Virus record (IMG/VR): IMGVR_UViG_3300025881_000010
Coordinates: 18,527 to 82,526 of that record
From: a virus
Length of the DNA stretch: 64,000 nt
Reading direction: 5' to 3' (one strand)
Part shown: piece after piece, positions 18,436 to 62,662 of the stretch
Layout of the letters: each line of letters begins with the position of its first letter
How positions within the stretch are numbered: the first letter of the stretch is position 1
The notes under the pieces: model-generated
Told to the model about the DNA's origin: nothing
Databases searched by the model: none
Seen by the model: the letters and a program-made list of their open reading frames with translations, nothing else
Made by a program: the position numbers and the translations under genes

Positions 18436-20013
18436 TTATATTAAGGATTGTCCTGAATTTCCTTTAGCAAATATTTCTGAAACTTCTGCAGCAGTTAATT
18501 CTTTATTAAAAATTGGCATTTCATCTAATTGCCCGTTTAATTTAAAGTTAGCATCTGCCTGATAATTTCCTATCCATAATTCATTATTTGTATTTGCCAT
18601 TTTAACATAAGTACCGGTCATTATACTGGCAGAAGAAACTAAAGTTCCATTTATATATGTTTTCATACCTCCATTTCCTAATCCGTTATAAGTATGAACT
18701 ACATGAACCCAAGCACCAGAAATAATAGCGTTTGTAGTGATATTTTGAGTAATATTATCGTATGAACCGTTACTAAATAATCTCCAAGTTAAAACTCCAC
18801 CATTATAATAACCGAAATATTCATTATTGGAATAGCTTGAATTCAGCTTAGAGAAAATCATAAATTTAGTATCCGTAGTTTTTATCCAATATGAAATACT
18901 AAAAGGCTTATCGTTTGTGCCATCTATAAAACTCAAACTATCAGTATCGCCTAAATTTATAAAACTAGTTGAACCATTTAATACTGCTGCCTGTCCTACT
19001 AATCCGGCTGCATAAGTAATTGCTGTTGGCGTTCCATTATTCGCTCCGAAACTATCTAAAACATTCCCTTCCATTTTGTAGTAGGAAATAATACTACTTA
19101 CTGGATAAGGCTCACTAGCATTTGTTTTTTGCGATACTGTATTACTTGTAGATTTATTATAGTAAATATCTACTGGCTTCACTTCAAAAGTATAAGTGGT
19201 ATCAAGACTTAAACCTATACAATATCCACCTGATTGTATTTTTCCTTTATAAACTCCATTAGCATATACCTCATAAAACTCAATTGCATTTGTGCTTCCT
19301 GTGGGTGCGGTAAAATTAAGTTGAACGGCTGATCCGTAAACATTGCTTATACTTAGGTCTGTAATAGGATTTGGTAAAAGTTGATCGTAGGTATAAATAT
19401 CTCCAGTTACCCACTCGACTTCTAGCATATCGTTTGCAATTCCATGAGCTATTGTTGCATTTACACCCCCTGAATTACTTGTTTTATTAAAAATATTTGC
19501 ATAAATCTTTTGTTTTACATCGCCTAATCCAAACATTGTTGTATCTGCAACAGATGGGTCTCCGCCTATATTCGTTGCTAAAGGAAAGTATAAAATACGA
19601 GGTGCTAAATCAGTATAATTCGAATGATAAAATGAACTATTATTAATAGTTAAACAACCAGGGAAATAAAACATTGCTGTATTGTTACTAACATAAAATG
19701 ATGCCGGTAATAATTTACATTTTTTTGCTATATCTATCCAATAAGTTGGACTTGAAATTGTGTTTGCAGTATTTTTGAATGCATATGGTCTAAGGTTATA
19801 ATCCAAATCAATAAAGCATTCAATATTATCACCAACAATAGTAAAATTATAAATATTAGAGGGTGAAAAATCTGAACCGCTAGGATAATTTAAAAGTTTT
19901 GCAGCCAAGAGAGATGGTGTATTTATTATAGATGCAACCCCACCAATAAAAGTATTAGGCTGCAACGCCTGAATACTACTTTTCCCATATTCAAAATACT
20001 GTACTGGATTCAT
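18436..20013 (-). CDS. Tail adhesin with FN3 and LamG/concanavalin-like lectin domains (525 aa)
   Basis: Residues 1-210 are beta-rich with a BspA/LRR_5-like flavour (FYFPGCLTINNSSFY). Residues about 213-295 look like a fibronectin type III domain (PITDLSISNVYGSAVQLNF start, YTFEVKPVD later). Residues about 305-520 are a LamG_3/concanavalin A-like lectin domain, with YKMEGN, QAAVLNGSTSFINLGD, SISYWIK and QLDEMPIFNKELTAAEV as diagnostic segments. Such modular proteins bind surface glycans, so this is the best receptor-binding candidate. It follows the 996-aa fibre with a 1-nt gap. Domain calls are from pattern reading. Confidence 0.75.
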   Translation of the reverse strand: MNPVQYFEYGKSSIQALQPNTFIGGVASIINTPSLLAAKLLNYPSGSDFSPSNIYNFTIVGDNIECFIDLDYNLRPYAFKNTANTISSPTYWIDIAKKCKLLPASFYVSNNTAMFYFPGCLTINNSSFYHSNYTDLAPRILYFPLATNIGGDPSVADTTMFGLGDVKQKIYANIFNKTSNSGGVNATIAHGIANDMLEVEWVTGDIYTYDQLLPNPITDLSISNVYGSAVQLNFTAPTGSTNAIEFYEVYANGVYKGKIQSGGYCIGLSLDTTYTFEVKPVDIYYNKSTSNTVSQKTNASEPYPVSSIISYYKMEGNVLDSFGANNGTPTAITYAAGLVGQAAVLNGSTSFINLGDTDSLSFIDGTNDKPFSISYWIKTTDTKFMIFSKLNSSYSNNEYFGYYNGGVLTWRLFSNGSYDNITQNITTNAIISGAWVHVVHTYNGLGNGGMKTYINGTLVSSASIMTGTYVKMANTNNELWIGNYQADANFKLNGQLDEMPIFNKELTAAEVSEIFAKGNSGQSLI

Positions 20014-30620: not shown

Positions 30621-32858
30621 TTAAGCTTTTTGAGGTGTCTTTTTTGTATCACTTCGATCTTTTTGTTCTAATTCAGCAGCTTTTACTCTTTCGGTTGTAG
30701 TAGCTTTCATACCTTCTGTGATAGCTTTATTGTTAGCATATGTATCAGCAATTCTTTCTTGAGAAGCATTTCTATCATCAGCAATTTGTTTTGTCTGTTC
30801 TAGTTTAGCTTGTTCGGTTTGAGCTTCTAATTTAGCTTGTTCCTCAGCAGCTTTTCTATTTGCTTCTTGCAATTCCATATAAGATTTCATGGTTCTTTTG
30901 AAAACCGCTTTTTTCTCTGAAGCTGTTTCAGCTTCGAGAACATCAATTAAACCTTCCATCATTTCAATAGCATTTGAAGATGATAAAGCTTGTTCTGCAG
31001 CGGCATCAATTCTTTGAGCTTTTTCTTTATCCTTACGGCTATCAGATAAATAAATACCTAAATCAGATTCAAAAAACTCTTTGTAAATCTTAATGAATTT
31101 AGCTTCTAAATCTCCAAAAGCCATTTGTAATACTTCTCCTTCAGAATAATCATGTTTAGATTTCATGATCACTCGCTCAATAAGCGTTTGCACAAATTCA
31201 TCAAAAGGAGTGAATACAACTTCTGTACGTGCAGCTGAACCCGCGATTGCGGCATTAGTTCCTCCGGCAGTTTGGTATTGTCCAACTTGACCTTCACGCT
31301 CTGGAGATATCCCTACAAACTTACTAGCCATATCTTCAATCATTGCCAAAGCAGTAAACATATCTTGCATAGTTCCTTTTGCAGATAAGTCAAGTGAATT
31401 GAATTGATTGAAAGTATTTTTTTGTTGAGCTCTATCTTTAGAGTTTATGAACATGATCTTATCTTTCTTGATGTGGTGCATTACTCTATCAAGTGCAGAA
31501 TCATATCCTTTTTTAGAAACATCTTTAGGAGTTTGAGCAACATCATATATTAAAATACGACTATCTCCCATGTGCTTTACAGCAAGTCTAATTTCGAAAA
31601 GAATTTCAGAAGCTAATTGTTGTAGTTGATACAATTTAGCAGCTGGTGATTTTATTTGAGAACTTCCAGTAGCAATATCTCTAACTAAAGAAACTACCGG
31701 TAATTTACAAATATATGGATTGTCAATAGAAGAGAAACGTTGTTTCATAATTCCAAAATCCAAGCATATTTCAGGACCTAACATTTGAACAAATCTTGGC
31801 ACTTCACCATAGATTTCTTTTATGTTATCGTTCTCTCTGGCTTTTTCATCTATACCTAGTTTCTTATAAAAAACTTTTTGAGTTTTTTTGCTTTCAGAAA
31901 CTTTGATAGAAACTTTTTTCTGAGATTTCCACATACCGCTAACCACTCTCATACGTGTAGTTTTGTTATCGGTATTTACCCAGCCATCATACTTCTTAGC
32001 GTTTTTTAAAGGCTCACTATTATTGGTATTATCTCCAGTAGTAAAAGCACTAAAGATAGCATTTACAGCATCTTTCTTTTTCTTATCTAATTTGAAAATA
32101 TTGAAAATCTCATTTTTCGTCAACCAATAGTTTTCGAAAAAATATTCATGATCATCTTGAATAGCTTGATAAGGATCTGTATCATGGTCAGCATCTAAAG
32201 GATGCACTTTTCTTGCAATAGTATGGCCTTTCATTTTATCAACTATTGCATGGCATTGATCAGCAATACAAAAGTCAGTGAACATTTCCGGTATTCTATT
32301 TTTACCTTTATTCACTTCAAGCCAAAGCTGTGCTAAATTATCAGCTACATCTTCAGCAATCATTTTGAACTTCTTAGTCATGAACTCTTCTACATCTGGA
32401 GGAAGCTCAACATCTTTGTGTTGAGTTTCAATCTCAAATCCAAGTTCTTCTTTAGTTTCTTGCGATACCCCACGCATTACTTCTTCAGTAAGAAGATCTA
32501 ATTTTTTATCTAACTTTTTTGAAATTGATTTTTTATCTATAACGTAAGCTTTTTTCCTAAGTGGTCGGCTCATGTATTCCCCAACAATTTGCTCGATCTT
32601 AGTTTGAATCAAAGGATAAACAATAAATTGAACTCCCAAATTAACTCCATTAGGACAAGTGATGGATTTTACAAGTCCTTCTTGTTCTGGAGATAGTTCA
32701 GCAAAGTAAGCTCGATAAAGCTTTTCAATTTCTTTTTTTCTATCATCTGCAGTTCCAGGATTAGAAAATCTAGCATACTCTATAGCATGCTTAATGTGAA
32801 ATTCCTCGTTCTTCTGATTTTCAGGAATTGTTTGGTCGGGGAGTGCAAAGTAACTCAT
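30621..32858 (-). CDS. Portal protein (745 aa)
   Basis: This should form the dodecameric portal through which DNA is packaged and which nucleates head assembly. Supporting features are its place directly after TerL, its length, the N-terminal segment YPLIQTKIEQIVGEYMSRPL (about residues 78-97) typical of crAss-like portals, a long helical core, and a C-terminal coiled coil rich in Ala, Gln, Glu and Lys (barrel). A segment near residues 440-480 (MHHIKKDKIMFINSKDR) recurs in the mini-gene at 40389-40709. The leader has CCCC 3 nt before the ATG. Confidence 0.85.
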   Translation of the reverse strand: MSYFALPDQTIPENQKNEEFHIKHAIEYARFSNPGTADDRKKEIEKLYRAYFAELSPEQEGLVKSITCPNGVNLGVQFIVYPLIQTKIEQIVGEYMSRPLRKKAYVIDKKSISKKLDKKLDLLTEEVMRGVSQETKEELGFEIETQHKDVELPPDVEEFMTKKFKMIAEDVADNLAQLWLEVNKGKNRIPEMFTDFCIADQCHAIVDKMKGHTIARKVHPLDADHDTDPYQAIQDDHEYFFENYWLTKNEIFNIFKLDKKKKDAVNAIFSAFTTGDNTNNSEPLKNAKKYDGWVNTDNKTTRMRVVSGMWKSQKKVSIKVSESKKTQKVFYKKLGIDEKARENDNIKEIYGEVPRFVQMLGPEICLDFGIMKQRFSSIDNPYICKLPVVSLVRDIATGSSQIKSPAAKLYQLQQLASEILFEIRLAVKHMGDSRILIYDVAQTPKDVSKKGYDSALDRVMHHIKKDKIMFINSKDRAQQKNTFNQFNSLDLSAKGTMQDMFTALAMIEDMASKFVGISPEREGQVGQYQTAGGTNAAIAGSAARTEVVFTPFDEFVQTLIERVIMKSKHDYSEGEVLQMAFGDLEAKFIKIYKEFFESDLGIYLSDSRKDKEKAQRIDAAAEQALSSSNAIEMMEGLIDVLEAETASEKKAVFKRTMKSYMELQEANRKAAEEQAKLEAQTEQAKLEQTKQIADDRNASQERIADTYANNKAITEGMKATTTERVKAAELEQKDRSDTKKTPQKA

Positions 32859-37074: not shown

Positions 37075-38727
37075 TTAATATTGTTGAGGTTTGTAGATAT
37101 CTGGATCTACGATTACTGATTCCGTTGTTAATATCATTCCCATAATTGAGACAGCGCTTTCTAAAGCTACACGAGTAACTTTCTTTGGGTCCATAATTCC
37201 AGCTTTGATCATATCATCTACATACTTGATCTCACGAGCATCAAATCCCATATTGAAATTCGATTCCATTTCCTGAATTCTTTCAATAGGAATATTATAT
37301 CCTACATTTTCTACAATTTGTTCAAATGGTTTTCTTATTGCTTTAAGTAATACCTCAGCGCCTTTCTTACGATCTTCGTTATTACTAATGCTTCCAATAT
37401 TCATTTGACTTAAACTAAGAAGTGCAGTACCACCACCCGGGATAACACCTTCTTCGTATGCCGCTTTAATTGCATAAAGCGCATCCGTTACACGAGCTTG
37501 CTTCTCTAATAATTCTGTATCACTAAGACCTCCAATATGAATAAATGATAAACCTTCAGTCAATCTAGAAATTCTAGAATTGATTATTGATTTTTGATAT
37601 CCATCAAGATTTTTAGTTTTCAATTTATCGCGAAGTTCTGAAGCTCTCTTTTCAGTATGAGCATCAATTTTTTCATACTCTTCATCTTTAAGACCAATCG
37701 GCCCTTTAAGAGAACTTGTATGTTGACCGATAGTGATCTCTTCAGATTGTGGTAAATAATCTAAAATGTTTTCATTGTCCAAAGAATAGAAATCTAATCC
37801 TTCATCAGTGAAAATTTCTTTTCCCATTACAATTGAAAGATCATTAAGAATATCAATCTTATCATTTCCGAAACCAGGAACACGACAAACACAAATTTTG
37901 AAATTCTTTTTGACTTTATTCTCAGCCATAATATTCAAAACAAATTCGTCGATATCTTCACAAATGATCAATAACGATTTATCACCTTCATGAATCTGAG
38001 TAAGCAAGATATCTAAATTGTCATAAGGCTCAATGTTCGTAATCTTTTTATCTGTAATGTAGATATACGGATTTTCAAGAACACAAACTTCTTCTTCTTT
38101 TCTGTTCATGAATACTCTGGACTTATAACCCATAGGTAAAGTCAATCCATCTACAGTACTTAAAAAAGTTTTCTCAGTATGAGATCTTTTGATATTTACA
38201 ATTCCCTGTTTTCCGGAAGTCTTGAAAGCATCAAAAACTACATTTGCAATTTCTTCATCATTGTTAGAAGATATCAAGGCAACTTGTTTTAGAATTTTAT
38301 TATTCTCTTTGTTGTCCTCGGTAACATCTTTAGATAATTTTGCCAATTGATCAACAATCAATCTTGCCATATCATCCATTCCTCTTTTCATTTCTAAGAG
38401 GTTTGTATCTGGAGCTTGCTTTAATCCTTCAATAAGAATAGCTTCTCCAATAACCGTAGCGGTAGTGGTACCATCTCCAGCTTTACTATCAGAACTATTT
38501 GCAATATCCTGGATTGATTCAATAGCAATCATTTCAAAAGGATCTTCAGAAGCCATGTGTCCAGCAACGGTAACACCATCTTTTGTTGAGAATGGTCTTT
38601 CATCCTTATTTCTAATTAGCACATTTCGTCCACTTGGACCTAATGTCGCTTTAACTGCTTTCGCAATTGAAGAAACCCCGGAAGCTAATTTCTTCCGGGC
38701 ATCTTCACCATATAGTACTTTATTCAT
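37075..38727 (-). CDS. groEL: Phage-encoded chaperonin GroEL/Hsp60 (550 aa)
   Basis: This ATP-dependent folding chaperonin keeps the defining motifs: ATLGPSGRNVLI, TKDGVTVA, KAGDGTTTAT (about residues 83-92, nucleotide binding), RVTDALYAIKAAYEEGV with the catalytic Asp near 409, and PGGGTALL. Length matches bacterial GroEL, but the Gly-Gly-Met tail is missing and the end is DPDIYKPQQY. Divergence through the apical domain suggests a specialised client, perhaps the large capsid or tail proteins. A GroES-like gene lies two genes upstream in the same operon. Clear family call; client is inference. Confidence 0.95.
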   Translation of the reverse strand: MNKVLYGEDARKKLASGVSSIAKAVKATLGPSGRNVLIRNKDERPFSTKDGVTVAGHMASEDPFEMIAIESIQDIANSSDSKAGDGTTTATVIGEAILIEGLKQAPDTNLLEMKRGMDDMARLIVDQLAKLSKDVTEDNKENNKILKQVALISSNNDEEIANVVFDAFKTSGKQGIVNIKRSHTEKTFLSTVDGLTLPMGYKSRVFMNRKEEEVCVLENPYIYITDKKITNIEPYDNLDILLTQIHEGDKSLLIICEDIDEFVLNIMAENKVKKNFKICVCRVPGFGNDKIDILNDLSIVMGKEIFTDEGLDFYSLDNENILDYLPQSEEITIGQHTSSLKGPIGLKDEEYEKIDAHTEKRASELRDKLKTKNLDGYQKSIINSRISRLTEGLSFIHIGGLSDTELLEKQARVTDALYAIKAAYEEGVIPGGGTALLSLSQMNIGSISNNEDRKKGAEVLLKAIRKPFEQIVENVGYNIPIERIQEMESNFNMGFDAREIKYVDDMIKAGIMDPKKVTRVALESAVSIMGMILTTESVIVDPDIYKPQQY

Positions 38728-40388: not shown

Positions 40389-40709
40389 CTAAAAGTTTGA
40401 GAATATAAATCCACAATCATTTGGATTGCGTTCTTTGCTATTAATAAACATAATTTTGTCTCGCTTTATATGATGCATCAATCTATCCAGATCTTCTTTA
40501 CTTACGCTAGGCAAAAAGTCTATATCGTAAACTAAAACTCTTGGCGGTTCTACAAAATACTGTAATCCCAATATAGGATCATAGTTGAATACCATCGTTG
40601 TCTGAATTGAATTTTTTAATTCTTCTGGATAAGGATTTACAGAAATCTTCTTATGAGTAATAGGAATTAAACCAGTCTCAATAGCCATCCTTCTTAATTC
40701 TTCGATCAT
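40389..40709 (-). CDS. Mini-gene carrying a portal-derived segment (106 aa)
   Basis: ATG 40709 follows the preceding stop by 1 nt; the longer frame upstream overlaps that gene and is rejected. Residues about 65-100 (VLVYDIDFLPSVSK, then LDRLMHHIKRDKIMFINSKE) match the portal protein segment with ILIYDVAQTPKDVSK and MHHIKKDKIMFINSKDR. The N-terminal 60 residues (LIPITHKKISVNPYPEEL) have no visible counterpart there. It is intact and lies among accessory genes. It may be a relic of a second portal gene or a small protein that engages the portal assembly surface. Confidence 0.65.
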   Translation of the reverse strand: MIEELRRMAIETGLIPITHKKISVNPYPEELKNSIQTTMVFNYDPILGLQYFVEPPRVLVYDIDFLPSVSKEDLDRLMHHIKRDKIMFINSKERNPNDCGFIFSNF

Positions 40710-40710
40710 A

Positions 40711-40896
40711 TCAATTTTGAATTTCTTTTTTAATAAATCTTTTTTGAAATTCTTGATTTTCCATAGCAAATAAATAATCAAATACTTTTCGCTTATAAAC
40801 TACAATTGTTATTCCTAATAATTTTTCACCCATTCCTGCAGTCATAGAATCAATTACTTCTATTTCTTCTTTATTTTTTTTATCAGTATATATCAT
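40711..40896 (-). CDS. Small protein, first gene after the structured leader (61 aa)
   Basis: A charged 61-residue protein with a hydrophobic centre (EKLLGITIVVYKRKVFDYLF). It starts about 20 nt after a strong terminator hairpin and ends 1 nt before the portal-like mini-gene. The family is not recognised. Confidence 0.5.
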   Translation of the reverse strand: MIYTDKKNKEEIEVIDSMTAGMGEKLLGITIVVYKRKVFDYLFAMENQEFQKRFIKKEIQN

Positions 40897-57155: not shown

Positions 57156-58466
57156 ATGAAAGCAAAAACGAAGTTTCAAAAGAAGATCGTTTCACTATCA
57201 AATAAGTTACCTGGGCTTTCAGAAGCTCAGGTAACTTATTTAAAAGAAGAACTATTTGAACATGGAGCCACATTATTAAAAAGTGGAAAACTATCATGTT
57301 TAGATTGTGGACACCAATGGCAAAACAAAGGCGCTGTATTAGCCGGAGTTGTTCTTGGAGAAGAATGTCCTAATTGTCATAGACAATTAAAAGTACAACG
57401 TACCCGTAAGAAAGTATTTGCTAATGAAACATATTATCAAGTAGTATCTGTTTTTGAAGGGTATCAAGTCGTTAGGGTTTTTATAGCAAGAAAATATTTT
57501 AAAGCTGGACAACCACAACGATTTACTATTCAGAAAGTCTATGAGAATTTTATATCTGAAGATGGTCAAATAGGAAACGTAGGATATTATCAAACATCTA
57601 AATGGTATGAATCCTGGGGAGGTGGATATGAATTAAGATCTGATCTGAGTAATTCAGATTATAGATTAAGCCTTAAAAATAAAGCTATTTATCCAAGGAG
57701 AAGTTTAATTAAAATTCTCAAAAGGAATGGTCTTACTAAAGACTTTCATGGTTGCAATCCTCCTGATTTGTTTTACACTTTAATAAATAATCCTAAATCT
57801 GAAACCTTACTAAAGGCAAAGCAATATCACTTGCTTAATCAGTATGTGATGGACTCAAGAAAGTTTGAAGAAAATTGGGCTTCTATTAAGATATGCATAC
57901 GCAACAATTATTATGTTGCAGAGCCTATCGAATGGATGGATTATCTCGGACTTTTAAGAGACTTTGGTAAAGACGTTCACAATTCTAAATACATCTGTCC
58001 TAAAAATATGATGCTTCAACACAACATATATGTGAAAAAAAAGCGTAAGCTAAGAATGAAGCAAGAACTTGAAAAACAACGTCAAGAGATTGAATATGCT
58101 CAAATAGAATATGAGAAGATGAAAAAGCCTTACATGGGACTTATATTTTCTAATGACTTAGTAGAAGTTTCTTTCATGAACACTGTAGAAGAAGTAATGA
58201 TTGATAGCGATGAGCTAAAACATTGCTCTTTTGCTAGTAAATACTATAAAAAGAAAACGCTTTTATTCTCTGCCAAAATAAATAAAAAGAGAATAGCTAC
58301 TATTGAATTTAATCCTGAGAAAAAAAAGATTGTACAACTTAGAGGATATCATAATCACATGACTAATTATGATCAGCAGATAACAGCTTTATTTCAGCAG
58401 AACATGAAAGTTATCGCTGATTGCACTAAGCCTAAACGAAAAAAGCGAAAGCTACAAACAGCTTAA
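57156..58466 (+). CDS. PcfJ-domain protein (436 aa)
   Basis: Residues about 48-80 hold a zinc ribbon (CLDCGHQW, CPNCHRQL). The C-terminal PcfJ pattern is clear near residues 350-400: ELKHCSFASKYYKKKTLLFS, RIATIEFNPEKKKI and QLRGYHNH. PcfJ proteins are known from conjugative plasmids and are a common marker gene of crAss-like phages; their biochemical role is unknown. It follows a PcfK-like gene by 2 nt, reproducing the plasmid gene pair. Confidence 0.8.
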   Translation: MKAKTKFQKKIVSLSNKLPGLSEAQVTYLKEELFEHGATLLKSGKLSCLDCGHQWQNKGAVLAGVVLGEECPNCHRQLKVQRTRKKVFANETYYQVVSVFEGYQVVRVFIARKYFKAGQPQRFTIQKVYENFISEDGQIGNVGYYQTSKWYESWGGGYELRSDLSNSDYRLSLKNKAIYPRRSLIKILKRNGLTKDFHGCNPPDLFYTLINNPKSETLLKAKQYHLLNQYVMDSRKFEENWASIKICIRNNYYVAEPIEWMDYLGLLRDFGKDVHNSKYICPKNMMLQHNIYVKKKRKLRMKQELEKQRQEIEYAQIEYEKMKKPYMGLIFSNDLVEVSFMNTVEEVMIDSDELKHCSFASKYYKKKTLLFSAKINKKRIATIEFNPEKKKIVQLRGYHNHMTNYDQQITALFQQNMKVIADCTKPKRKKRKLQTA

Positions 58467-61071: not shown

Positions 61072-62205
61072 ATGAGTGGATTAACAGCAAACGTAGGTGG
61101 AGACAGTAAAAAGATTGAAAACGTACCTTTAATAAATGAAGGTAGACAAGTCTTCACTATCTATGGAGTAGCCGGTATCGGTACTCAAAACACTAAGTAT
61201 GGAATGAAACAACAATTAGCGTTGGCTTTTGAGTTTCCATTTCAAAAGAGAGTATTTTATGAAGGAGATCCAGAACGTCCATCTGCATTGTTTCAATATG
61301 AAACATTATCAATGGCTCCAAAATCTAATCTTCGTAAAATGGTTCACGCTTTGACAGGTAAGAAATTAACCGATGATGAAGCTAAAGATTATGACTTAGG
61401 TAATCTTAAAGGAATGCAAGGTGTGGCTTACATTCAACATTCTGATGATGGTAAATATGCTAACATTAATAGCATTGAAAAACTAGATAGTCAGAACATG
61501 CTAATGTTCGGTTTACAACAGCCTCATGTAGATCCTGTAAATGAACAATTCTTTTATCATTCAGGTATGGGATATGATACTGAAATCTTTGGGAAGCTTC
61601 CGGGTAACTTTCGTAAGAGAGTAATGGAATCTACTGAAGGTATCACACATCATAATGCCGGAGGTAAATTCCATGATCAGATTAAGAAGTATAATAATGA
61701 TAATAATGAATCTGGAGGTACGCAAAGCAATCCTAACAGAAAGCTTATCATGAAGCCTGATTCTCCATATACATATGATCAGTTGAAAGCTTCTAATTAT
61801 TCTGAACAGCAGATGGTAGATAATAATTATGCTTTTTGGCAAGAAGTTGTAGCGGCTCCAGCACCTCAACAAGCTCCACCCGTTCAGCAAACCCAACAAG
61901 CACCGCCACCTGCACAGCAAGCACCACCTGTTCAACAGCCACAAACTCAACAGGCACCACCTGTTCAAACTCAGCAAGCACCACCGCCAGTGCAACAAGC
62001 ACCACCGGTACAGCAAGCACCGAGTTCTAGTCCTCAACCTAATCAACCGCATCCAAGTGGTCAAGGTTTTTATACAGGATATGCAGATACTCGTGGTACT
62101 CTTTTATTGAGAACAAACCAGTTTACTGTTAAAGAATGGTTTGATAACAAGTGGACTGTAGATACTTTAGTATCTAATGATCACGCGTTTTTCTTACAGG
62201 AATAG
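61072..62205 (+). CDS. SSB-like protein, zero-frame product (377 aa)
   Basis: The N-terminal 160 residues show an OB-like single-stranded DNA-binding pattern (NEGRQVFTIYGVAGIGTQNT, QLALAFEFPF, LSMAPKSNLRKMVHALTGKK). A Pro/Gln/Ala-rich linker (about 262-322) follows. Two copies of a short motif occur: YDQLKASNYSEQQMVDNNYA (about 233-255) and FTVKEWFDNKWTVDT with LVSNDHAF (about 350-372). The zero frame stops at 62205 without the acidic SSB tail, but the -1 frame continues to 62318 and ends in DDAEDDLPF. A frameshift signal lies at the junction (next entry); the fused product would be 415 aa. Confidence 0.8.
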   Translation: MSGLTANVGGDSKKIENVPLINEGRQVFTIYGVAGIGTQNTKYGMKQQLALAFEFPFQKRVFYEGDPERPSALFQYETLSMAPKSNLRKMVHALTGKKLTDDEAKDYDLGNLKGMQGVAYIQHSDDGKYANINSIEKLDSQNMLMFGLQQPHVDPVNEQFFYHSGMGYDTEIFGKLPGNFRKRVMESTEGITHHNAGGKFHDQIKKYNNDNNESGGTQSNPNRKLIMKPDSPYTYDQLKASNYSEQQMVDNNYAFWQEVVAAPAPQQAPPVQQTQQAPPPAQQAPPVQQPQTQQAPPVQTQQAPPPVQQAPPVQQAPSSSPQPNQPHPSGQGFYTGYADTRGTLLLRTNQFTVKEWFDNKWTVDTLVSNDHAFFLQE

Positions 62206-62233
62206 AAGCTCCAAAACAGTCTGCATCTATTCC
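62187..62233 (+). promoter_or_regulatory. Candidate programmed -1 ribosomal frameshift signal in the SSB-like gene
   Basis: The slippery heptamer is G TTT TTC (62187-62193, zero frame gcG TTT TTC). After a 5-nt spacer (TTACA) comes GGAATAGA (62199-62206), which pairs perfectly with TCTATTCC (62226-62233) over a 19-nt loop. The zero-frame TAG is within the stem. Slippage by -1 continues as LTGIEAPKQSASIPP and so on. The heptamer deviates from the ideal X XXY YYZ at its first base. Confidence 0.65.
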
Positions 62234-62318
62234 ACCTATCAACAAGACTGAAAGTGTAAATGAACAATTTCCAGCAAACTTCAATTTAGATGATGCTGAA
62301 GATGATTTACCGTTCTAA
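62193..62318 (+). CDS. -1 frame extension encoding the SSB acidic tail
   Basis: From 62193 the -1 frame encodes 41 residues, a polar linker and the end NLDDAEDDLPF, which is the classical SSB C-terminal interaction tip (acidic, then Leu/Ile-Pro-Phe). The frame has no ATG of its own near the junction. Its TAA overlaps the next gene's ATG (TAATG), so termination in this frame would feed that gene. It is not a separate gene but the end of the frameshifted SSB. Confidence 0.7.
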   Translation, partial: LTGIEAPKQSASIPPINKTESVNEQFPANFNLDDAEDDLPF

Positions 62319-62662
62319 TGCACAGTTTTATTTGTAAAGCTCCAAACGGCTATCCAGAGCCGTTGGAGCCTTCAAAAAGAAGTTTACTTGATAAGATACT
62401 CAAAGATGCTAAAGAGAGAGGATTGACCTTTAAACTTAGTATCGAGTACATTGAGAAGAACCTTAACGCTGAACAGAAATCATTATACAGAGGTTTTATA
62501 TTAAAAGCATCAAAATCTTTAGGTTATGAGTATCACGATATGGAGAAAGAGCTTAAAAGATTTATGCCTGATAAACCACTTGACAGATGGAGTTCACGAG
62601 AGTTAACTGAATTCATAGATCAATCTTCCGCTTTTTTAGTCCAGTGGGGATTTAATTTTTAA
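62318..62662 (+). CDS. Small protein with NinB-like features (114 aa)
   Basis: Basic at the N-terminus, then NLNAEQKSLYRGFILKASKS and a C-terminal LDRWSSRELTEFIDQSSAFL with VQWGF. The final pattern weakly resembles phage NinB-type recombination proteins, where a helix ahead of the end contains similar aromatic spacing. The start overlaps the TAA of the frameshifted SSB. The family call is tentative. Confidence 0.6.
   Translation: MHSFICKAPNGYPEPLEPSKRSLLDKILKDAKERGLTFKLSIEYIEKNLNAEQKSLYRGFILKASKSLGYEYHDMEKELKRFMPDKPLDRWSSRELTEFIDQSSAFLVQWGFNF

Follow-up and report, generated by a model that had tools for sequence, protein, structure and literature searches.

Genomic context of the SSB-like gene

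The SSB-like gene described here lies towards the right end of the window, a stretch of 64,000 nucleotides (positions 18,527 to 82,526) from the 82.5 kb virus record IMGVR_UViG_3300025881_000010. It is part of an operon encoding DnaB, HU, a 96-aa ORF, the SSB-like protein, a 114-aa ORF, a 73-aa ORF, and a Dda-like helicase, in this order (Table 1). The capsid protein of the phage matches crAss-like phages only (best E = 1e-10), and the terminase matches mostly crAss-like phages, with ~24% identity. This crass-type capsid and terminase indicate membership of the Crassvirales, outside any named family. The host probably belongs to the Bacteroidota.

Table 1: Coordinates of the SSB-like gene and of the elements at its split 3' end (window positions).
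Feature	Position	Strand	Basis or remark
Zero frame of the SSB-like gene (short form, 377 aa, no acidic tip)	61072..62205	+	ORF list, predicted fold
C-terminal small domain, aa 334-374, last codon is slip codon TTC	62071..62193	+	AlphaFold2, last strand E372-374
Slip site G TTT TTC (G_UU.U_UU.C; core tetramer U_UUC)	62187..62193	+	Sole A_AAG/U_UUY site in the zero/-1 overlap
Tail in the -1 frame, 41 codons (LTGIEAPK...DDLPF), and TAA at 62316-62318	62193..62318	+	Sequence and relatives
5-nt spacer TTACA	62194..62198	+	5 nt in all five split sequences
Stimulatory hairpin (predicted), 35 nt, 8-bp perfect outer stem	62199..62233	+	Folding, covarying pairs 1, 4, 5, 6, 7
Zero-frame stop TAG, within the 5' arm of the hairpin	62203..62205	+	Sequence
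DDLPF tip	62301..62315	+	In the -1 frame also in L092, L096 and L116; the L099 type ends in QDPPF
Downstream 114-aa gene	62318..62662	+	ATG has one base in common with the -1-frame TAA; same junction in L092, L096, L099 and L116

Split reading frames

In the zero frame, the protein ends with ...SNDHAFFLQE (C-terminal peptide of the short form: WTVDTLVSNDHAFFLQE) and lacks an acidic tip. A TGA at 62178-62180 closes the -1 frame on its upstream side; from 62181 onwards this frame is open, and it reads ...FLTGIEAPKQ...NLDDAEDDLPF. The acidic tip D-D-[LI]-P-F is reachable only via this frame, the tail portion of which contains no ATG, GTG or TTG in the window. The expected long form after a shift comprises 415 aa, with the junction peptide WTVDTLVSNDHAFFLTGIEAPK. 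The last base of the -1-frame TAA is the first base of the next ATG at 62318 (TAATG). The original prediction had described a tipless zero-frame end, an EDDLPF supplied by the -1 frame and a stop codon overlapping the next start, all of which is seen in the sequence. The overlap of the two frames was likewise recovered, although it measures 25 nt and not the 24 nt given at first. As TAG terminates 8 of the 39 long ORFs in the window, it is regarded as an ordinary stop here. Decoding of TAG as Gln was rejected for the same reason, and because zero-frame read-through does not yield the tail.

Predicted fold and identity of the protein

An AlphaFold2 model built from 15 aligned sequences predicts an OB-like core (aa 24-195, pLDDT mostly over 90), a Pro/Gln linker, and two small beta-alpha-alpha-beta units at aa 223-258 and 334-374. 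The last predicted strand ends at residue 374, which is encoded by the slip codon. The predicted folded domain thus ends with the slip codon itself, and a shift would replace a short stub by a tail that is presumably disordered and bears the tip. The best fold match in the PDB is PrgE (E = 1.3e-3, probability 1.00), a plasmid ssDNA-binding protein that is thought to be phage-derived (PMC11137577). The phrog_862 profile is matched by 9 of the 15 aligned relatives, with the window protein unmatched at E<0.001. Identification as an SSB is a prediction based on the modelled OB-fold, the tip, and the gene context. The two repeat units are encoded at window positions 61738-61845 and 62071-62193 (YDQLKASNYSEQQMVDNNYAFW / VKEWFDNKWTVDTLVSNDHAFF); the first gave short matches to proteins of Vibrio, Aeromonas, and Pseudoalteromonas phages, one of them annotated as SSB.

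The acidic tip of SSBs serves as a hub for recruiting proteins of replication and repair, and most studies of its role have used engineered truncations. An acidic C-terminus is characteristic of bacterial and phage SSBs, and its removal in related SSBs leads to higher DNA affinity or to a lack of discrimination against dsDNA (PMC5686142). In T4 gp32, removal of the tail (gp32-A) takes away the region interacting with Dda (PMC11551737).

Predicted frameshift signal in the window

The frame overlap of the window contains a single strong slip tetramer, U_UUC, a Z_ZZN tetramer inside an imperfect heptamer. In E. coli, the tetramers A_AAG >> U_UUC > U_UUU are the top three of 16, U_UUC thus ranking second, and the usual stimulator begins 5-8 nt downstream of the site (PMC4066793). 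The predicted hairpin has the stem arms GGAATAGA / TCTATTCC at 62199-62206 / 62226-62233. G TTT TTC, the 5-nt spacer, and the 8-bp perfect stem enclosing the zero-frame stop were all found where they had been proposed. The stem is more stable than shuffled sequences, with z = -2.64 for 64 nt and z = -4.6 for the 40 nt that follow the spacer. Within the gene, its score is not reached by a hairpin at any other start position; across the locus, 11 of 5862 start positions reach it. An Rfam search returned nothing relevant.

Conservation of the split in related phages

Direct single-protein searches were empty (SSB or DnaB searches of viral and genome contigs gave no match), and relatives were therefore reached via the terminase and then via Dda and SSB alignments. 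A search of genome contigs with the Dda alignment yielded no match. The tail is encoded in the -1 frame in five distinct sequences, namely the window, L092 (an 82.8 kb contig with an SSB identity of 44-46%), L096, the L099 type (L098-L101, four contigs from different metagenome assemblies), and L116 (an 82.3 kb contig). The identity of the relatives' SSBs to that of the window is 34-45%. The tips read EDDLPF in the window, HDDLPF in L092, DDDLPF in L096, QDPPF in the L099 type, and EDDLPF in L116. Common blocks in the -1 frame of the window and L092 are EQFPANF versus DQFPANF, and DDLPF. The two share 17 identical residues in this frame, 6 of them with different (synonymous) codons. In all five sequences the -1 stop overlaps the next ATG.

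Each overlap contains exactly one A_AAG, U_UUC or U_UUU site (5/5), tetramers with a per-codon frequency of 2-4% in these genes. The slip sites are G TTT TTC in the window, A GTA AAG in L092, C CCA AAG in L096, T GTT TTT in L099, and G ACT TTT in L116; that of L096 is a full heptamer, C_CCA_AAG. The zero-frame stops lie 0-9 nt past the slip codon. In all five sequences the hairpin begins exactly 5 nt past the slip site, and it closes after 35 nt (32 in L116). Because the overlap alone fixes the site, this constant spacing is not a product of fitting. Compared with hairpins starting elsewhere in the same loci, a hairpin starting at exactly that base has p values of 0.002-0.033 per locus and a combined p of 7e-8.

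Stem pairs were counted in register, since the loop of L116 is 3 nt shorter and an ungapped alignment misregisters this sequence. The outer pairs 1-5 are kept in all five sequences, and compensatory changes occur among them (G-C/A-U, A-U/G-C, U-A/C-G). Covariation is also seen at pairs 6 and 7, which do not form in L099, where the uninterrupted outer stem is limited to 5 pairs. In L096, the stability of the stem does not stand out against shuffled sequences, and two further pairs are possible upstream. The heptamer, spacer, and stem put forward in the original prediction thus fared unequally: the 5-nt spacer, a covarying stem, and the slip class are kept, whereas the idea of conserved heptamer letters was rejected.

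Other relatives lack the split. In the sister lineage of L094 and L104, TAG TAG stands directly before the next ATG (L094 2919-2927, L104 6015-6023) and there is no tail; the single SSB frame of L094 ends at that ATG (junction TAGTAGATG), which implies that the long form is dispensable there. L097 has the zero-frame end GDGLAF followed by TAATG, i.e. a reduced form of the tip and no signal. The distant L102 encodes DEDDDLPY in the zero frame without a signal, and P0002, P0003, and other phrog_862 phage proteins likewise carry the tip in the zero frame (DIKDVPF, EDEDIPF), also without a signal. The original prediction had regarded such homologues as contrary evidence; they exist, yet five sequences keep the split. 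Since the tip is also present in other phages, there in the zero frame, the tail is a feature of the protein family. Frameshifting itself appears, from these comparisons, to be a trait of this phage clade that was lost or bypassed in some members, typical rather than universal. The Dda and SSB trees leave undecided whether L094 and L097 are secondary losses.

Proposed mechanism

The protein is very probably a phage SSB of the phrog_862/PrgE-like OB-fold type that is expressed by programmed -1 ribosomal frameshifting. The split frames, the slip class, the spacing, and the covarying stem in relatives support this reading; a programmed -1 frameshift on an SSB-like gene was already put forward in the original prediction. 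Together with the predicted fold, these are the parts that the sequences themselves supply, whereas slippage in vivo and its rate are inferred.

According to this model, a ribosome would reach UUC at the end of the last folded strand, and the hairpin 5 nt ahead would stall it or tug at the mRNA. In a fraction of the ribosomes, tRNA-Phe would leave UUC and pair with UUU one base upstream, a slip of a single tRNA (A-site) that the hairpin stimulates. Shifted ribosomes would read 41 further codons, producing a presumably disordered tail that ends in DDAEDDLPF, while unshifted ribosomes would decode three codons beyond UUC before meeting the stop within the hairpin. One mRNA would thereby give a short SSB of 377 aa and a long one of 415 aa, in a ratio set by slip site and hairpin. 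With the tip hidden in the -1 frame behind a slip codon, a 5-base gap, and a hairpin, the ribosome should decide the share of tip-bearing copies. After a shift, translation would finish at the TAATG junction, from where ribosomes may also be passed on to the next gene.

A mixture of tailed and tail-less SSB could tune DNA binding and the recruitment of partners, e.g. the neighbouring Dda-like helicase. As this helicase is encoded just downstream, control of its recruitment by tip dosage is a reasonable guess. It is conceivable, albeit tentative, that a whole clade of crAss-like phages sets the tip density on the SSB filament by frameshifting, with most subunits naturally tail-less and only a fraction recruiting partners; the ratio may respond to conditions, for instance through binding of the SSB to its own mRNA hairpin.

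Alternative explanations

Frameshifting might be so efficient that nearly all SSB is tailed and the short form is a by-product. In E. coli, the rates of which may not be those of the host (probably Bacteroidota), the best heptamer measured, C_CCA_AAG, reaches 54% with a pseudoknot as strong stimulator, whereas tetramer sites alone give about 0.3-5.6% even with a pseudoknot (PMC4066793). High efficiency would also suit the acidic C-terminus of bacterial and phage SSBs (PMC5686142). However, four of the five sequences have the weaker, tetramer-type sites, and the closely following zero-frame stops define a clean short product, so this explanation is rather unlikely.

It is quite unlikely that the main function of a real frameshift is to meter the downstream 114-aa gene, and with it the Dda operon, through the TAATG junction, the SSB tail being secondary. 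The overlap of the -1 stop with the next ATG in 5/5 sequences speaks for such a function, as does the single SSB frame of L094 and L097, which also ends at that ATG. Yet TAATG junctions are common, and DDLPF is kept across distant sequences and matches the SSB hub motif, a tip that coupling alone would not need. Metering may be an additional role instead of a rival one.

It is very improbable that the tail arises from transcriptional slippage or is translated from a start of its own as a small protein. Short T runs (T5 in the window and L099, T4 in L116) would allow the former, but L092 and L096 have A3 runs only, which are too short for polymerase slippage. A separate start is available in L099, where GTG or a similar codon opens a 51-aa ORF, but not in the -1 frame of the window. 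Moreover, a slip tetramer and a hairpin at a fixed 5-nt spacing are a ribosomal signal. It is scarcely credible that the frames were broken by faulty sequencing or assembly, or that a single phage carries a decayed tail: the window's own phage is represented by one record and a single-base change would join the frames, but the same break occurs at the same place in four more distinct sequences, one type in four contigs, with the signal conserved, which excludes the one-base indel that the original prediction had considered.

Relation to known systems

The proposed -1 frameshifting of the SSB-like gene resembles that of E. coli dnaX, a replication gene with a -1 shift, a downstream hairpin, an early stop, and two C-terminal forms (tau/gamma) from one mRNA. 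The dnaX slip site is A AAA AAG and the protein is a different one; its shift yields the truncated form, whereas in the SSB-like gene the shift would add a tail. Gene 10 of phage T7 (10A/10B) is a phage gene with a -1 shift on an imperfect heptamer near the G_UU.U_UU.C of the window, the X_XX part being G_GU (PMC5009743). This gene encodes a structural protein and has a distant 3' stimulator, in contrast to the adjacent hairpin in the window. Transposases of the IS3/IS1 families use the tetramers A_AAG and U_UUY with a structure 5-8 nt downstream (PMC4066793), but there the shift fuses two transposase ORFs.

PrgE, the T7-type SSBs (Enc34 ORF6 and T7 gp2.5), and T4 gp32 are OB-fold ssDNA-binding proteins, a likeness that is predicted for the protein of the window. 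In this group, removal of the acidic tail alters DNA binding and partner recruitment (PMC5686142; PMC11551737). Tail-less forms of these proteins are laboratory constructs, whereas both forms of the window SSB are predicted to arise naturally, by recoding.

In the literature searched, with most subscription journals outside it, no SSB with programmed frameshifting was found, and none in crAss-like phages; this agrees with the original prediction, although absence is unproven. SSB is not mentioned in a 2013 census of frame transitions, nor in the accessible part of a 2016 recoding review. The mechanism class is known, and its use on an SSB tip appears to be new. Both SSB forms apparently come from one gene, with their ratio written in the mRNA, in relatives of the abundant crAss-like group. 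This offers a direct test of SSB tip dosage and places another replication gene next to dnaX among those shaped by -1 frameshifting. In these phages, the tail is missed by gene callers.

Further observations in the window

A second strong hairpin is located at 62339-62369, close to the start of the downstream 114-aa gene and inside its first 60 nt. Of 7 close-relative types, 6 have it at this position (the window, L092, L094, L096, L097, and L116); L099 and the distant L102 lack it. Its arm sequences differ, and it occurs with or without a frameshifted SSB tail. It is possibly a conserved RNA or DNA regulatory element.

A PcfJ-like protein (E 1e-23) is encoded at 57156-58466, in the same operon as the PrgE-like OB-fold protein; the PcfJ family is named for genes of plasmid pCF10, which is also the source of PrgE. 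On the minus strand, a phage GroEL-like chaperonin (Cpn60_TCP1, E 1e-48) at 37075-38727 adjoins the structural genes. Also on the minus strand, the ORF at 40389-40781 contains a 44-aa stretch that shares 59% identity with a part of the portal protein (30621-32858), whereas the sequence after it is unrelated; the ORF possibly represents a partial portal duplication.
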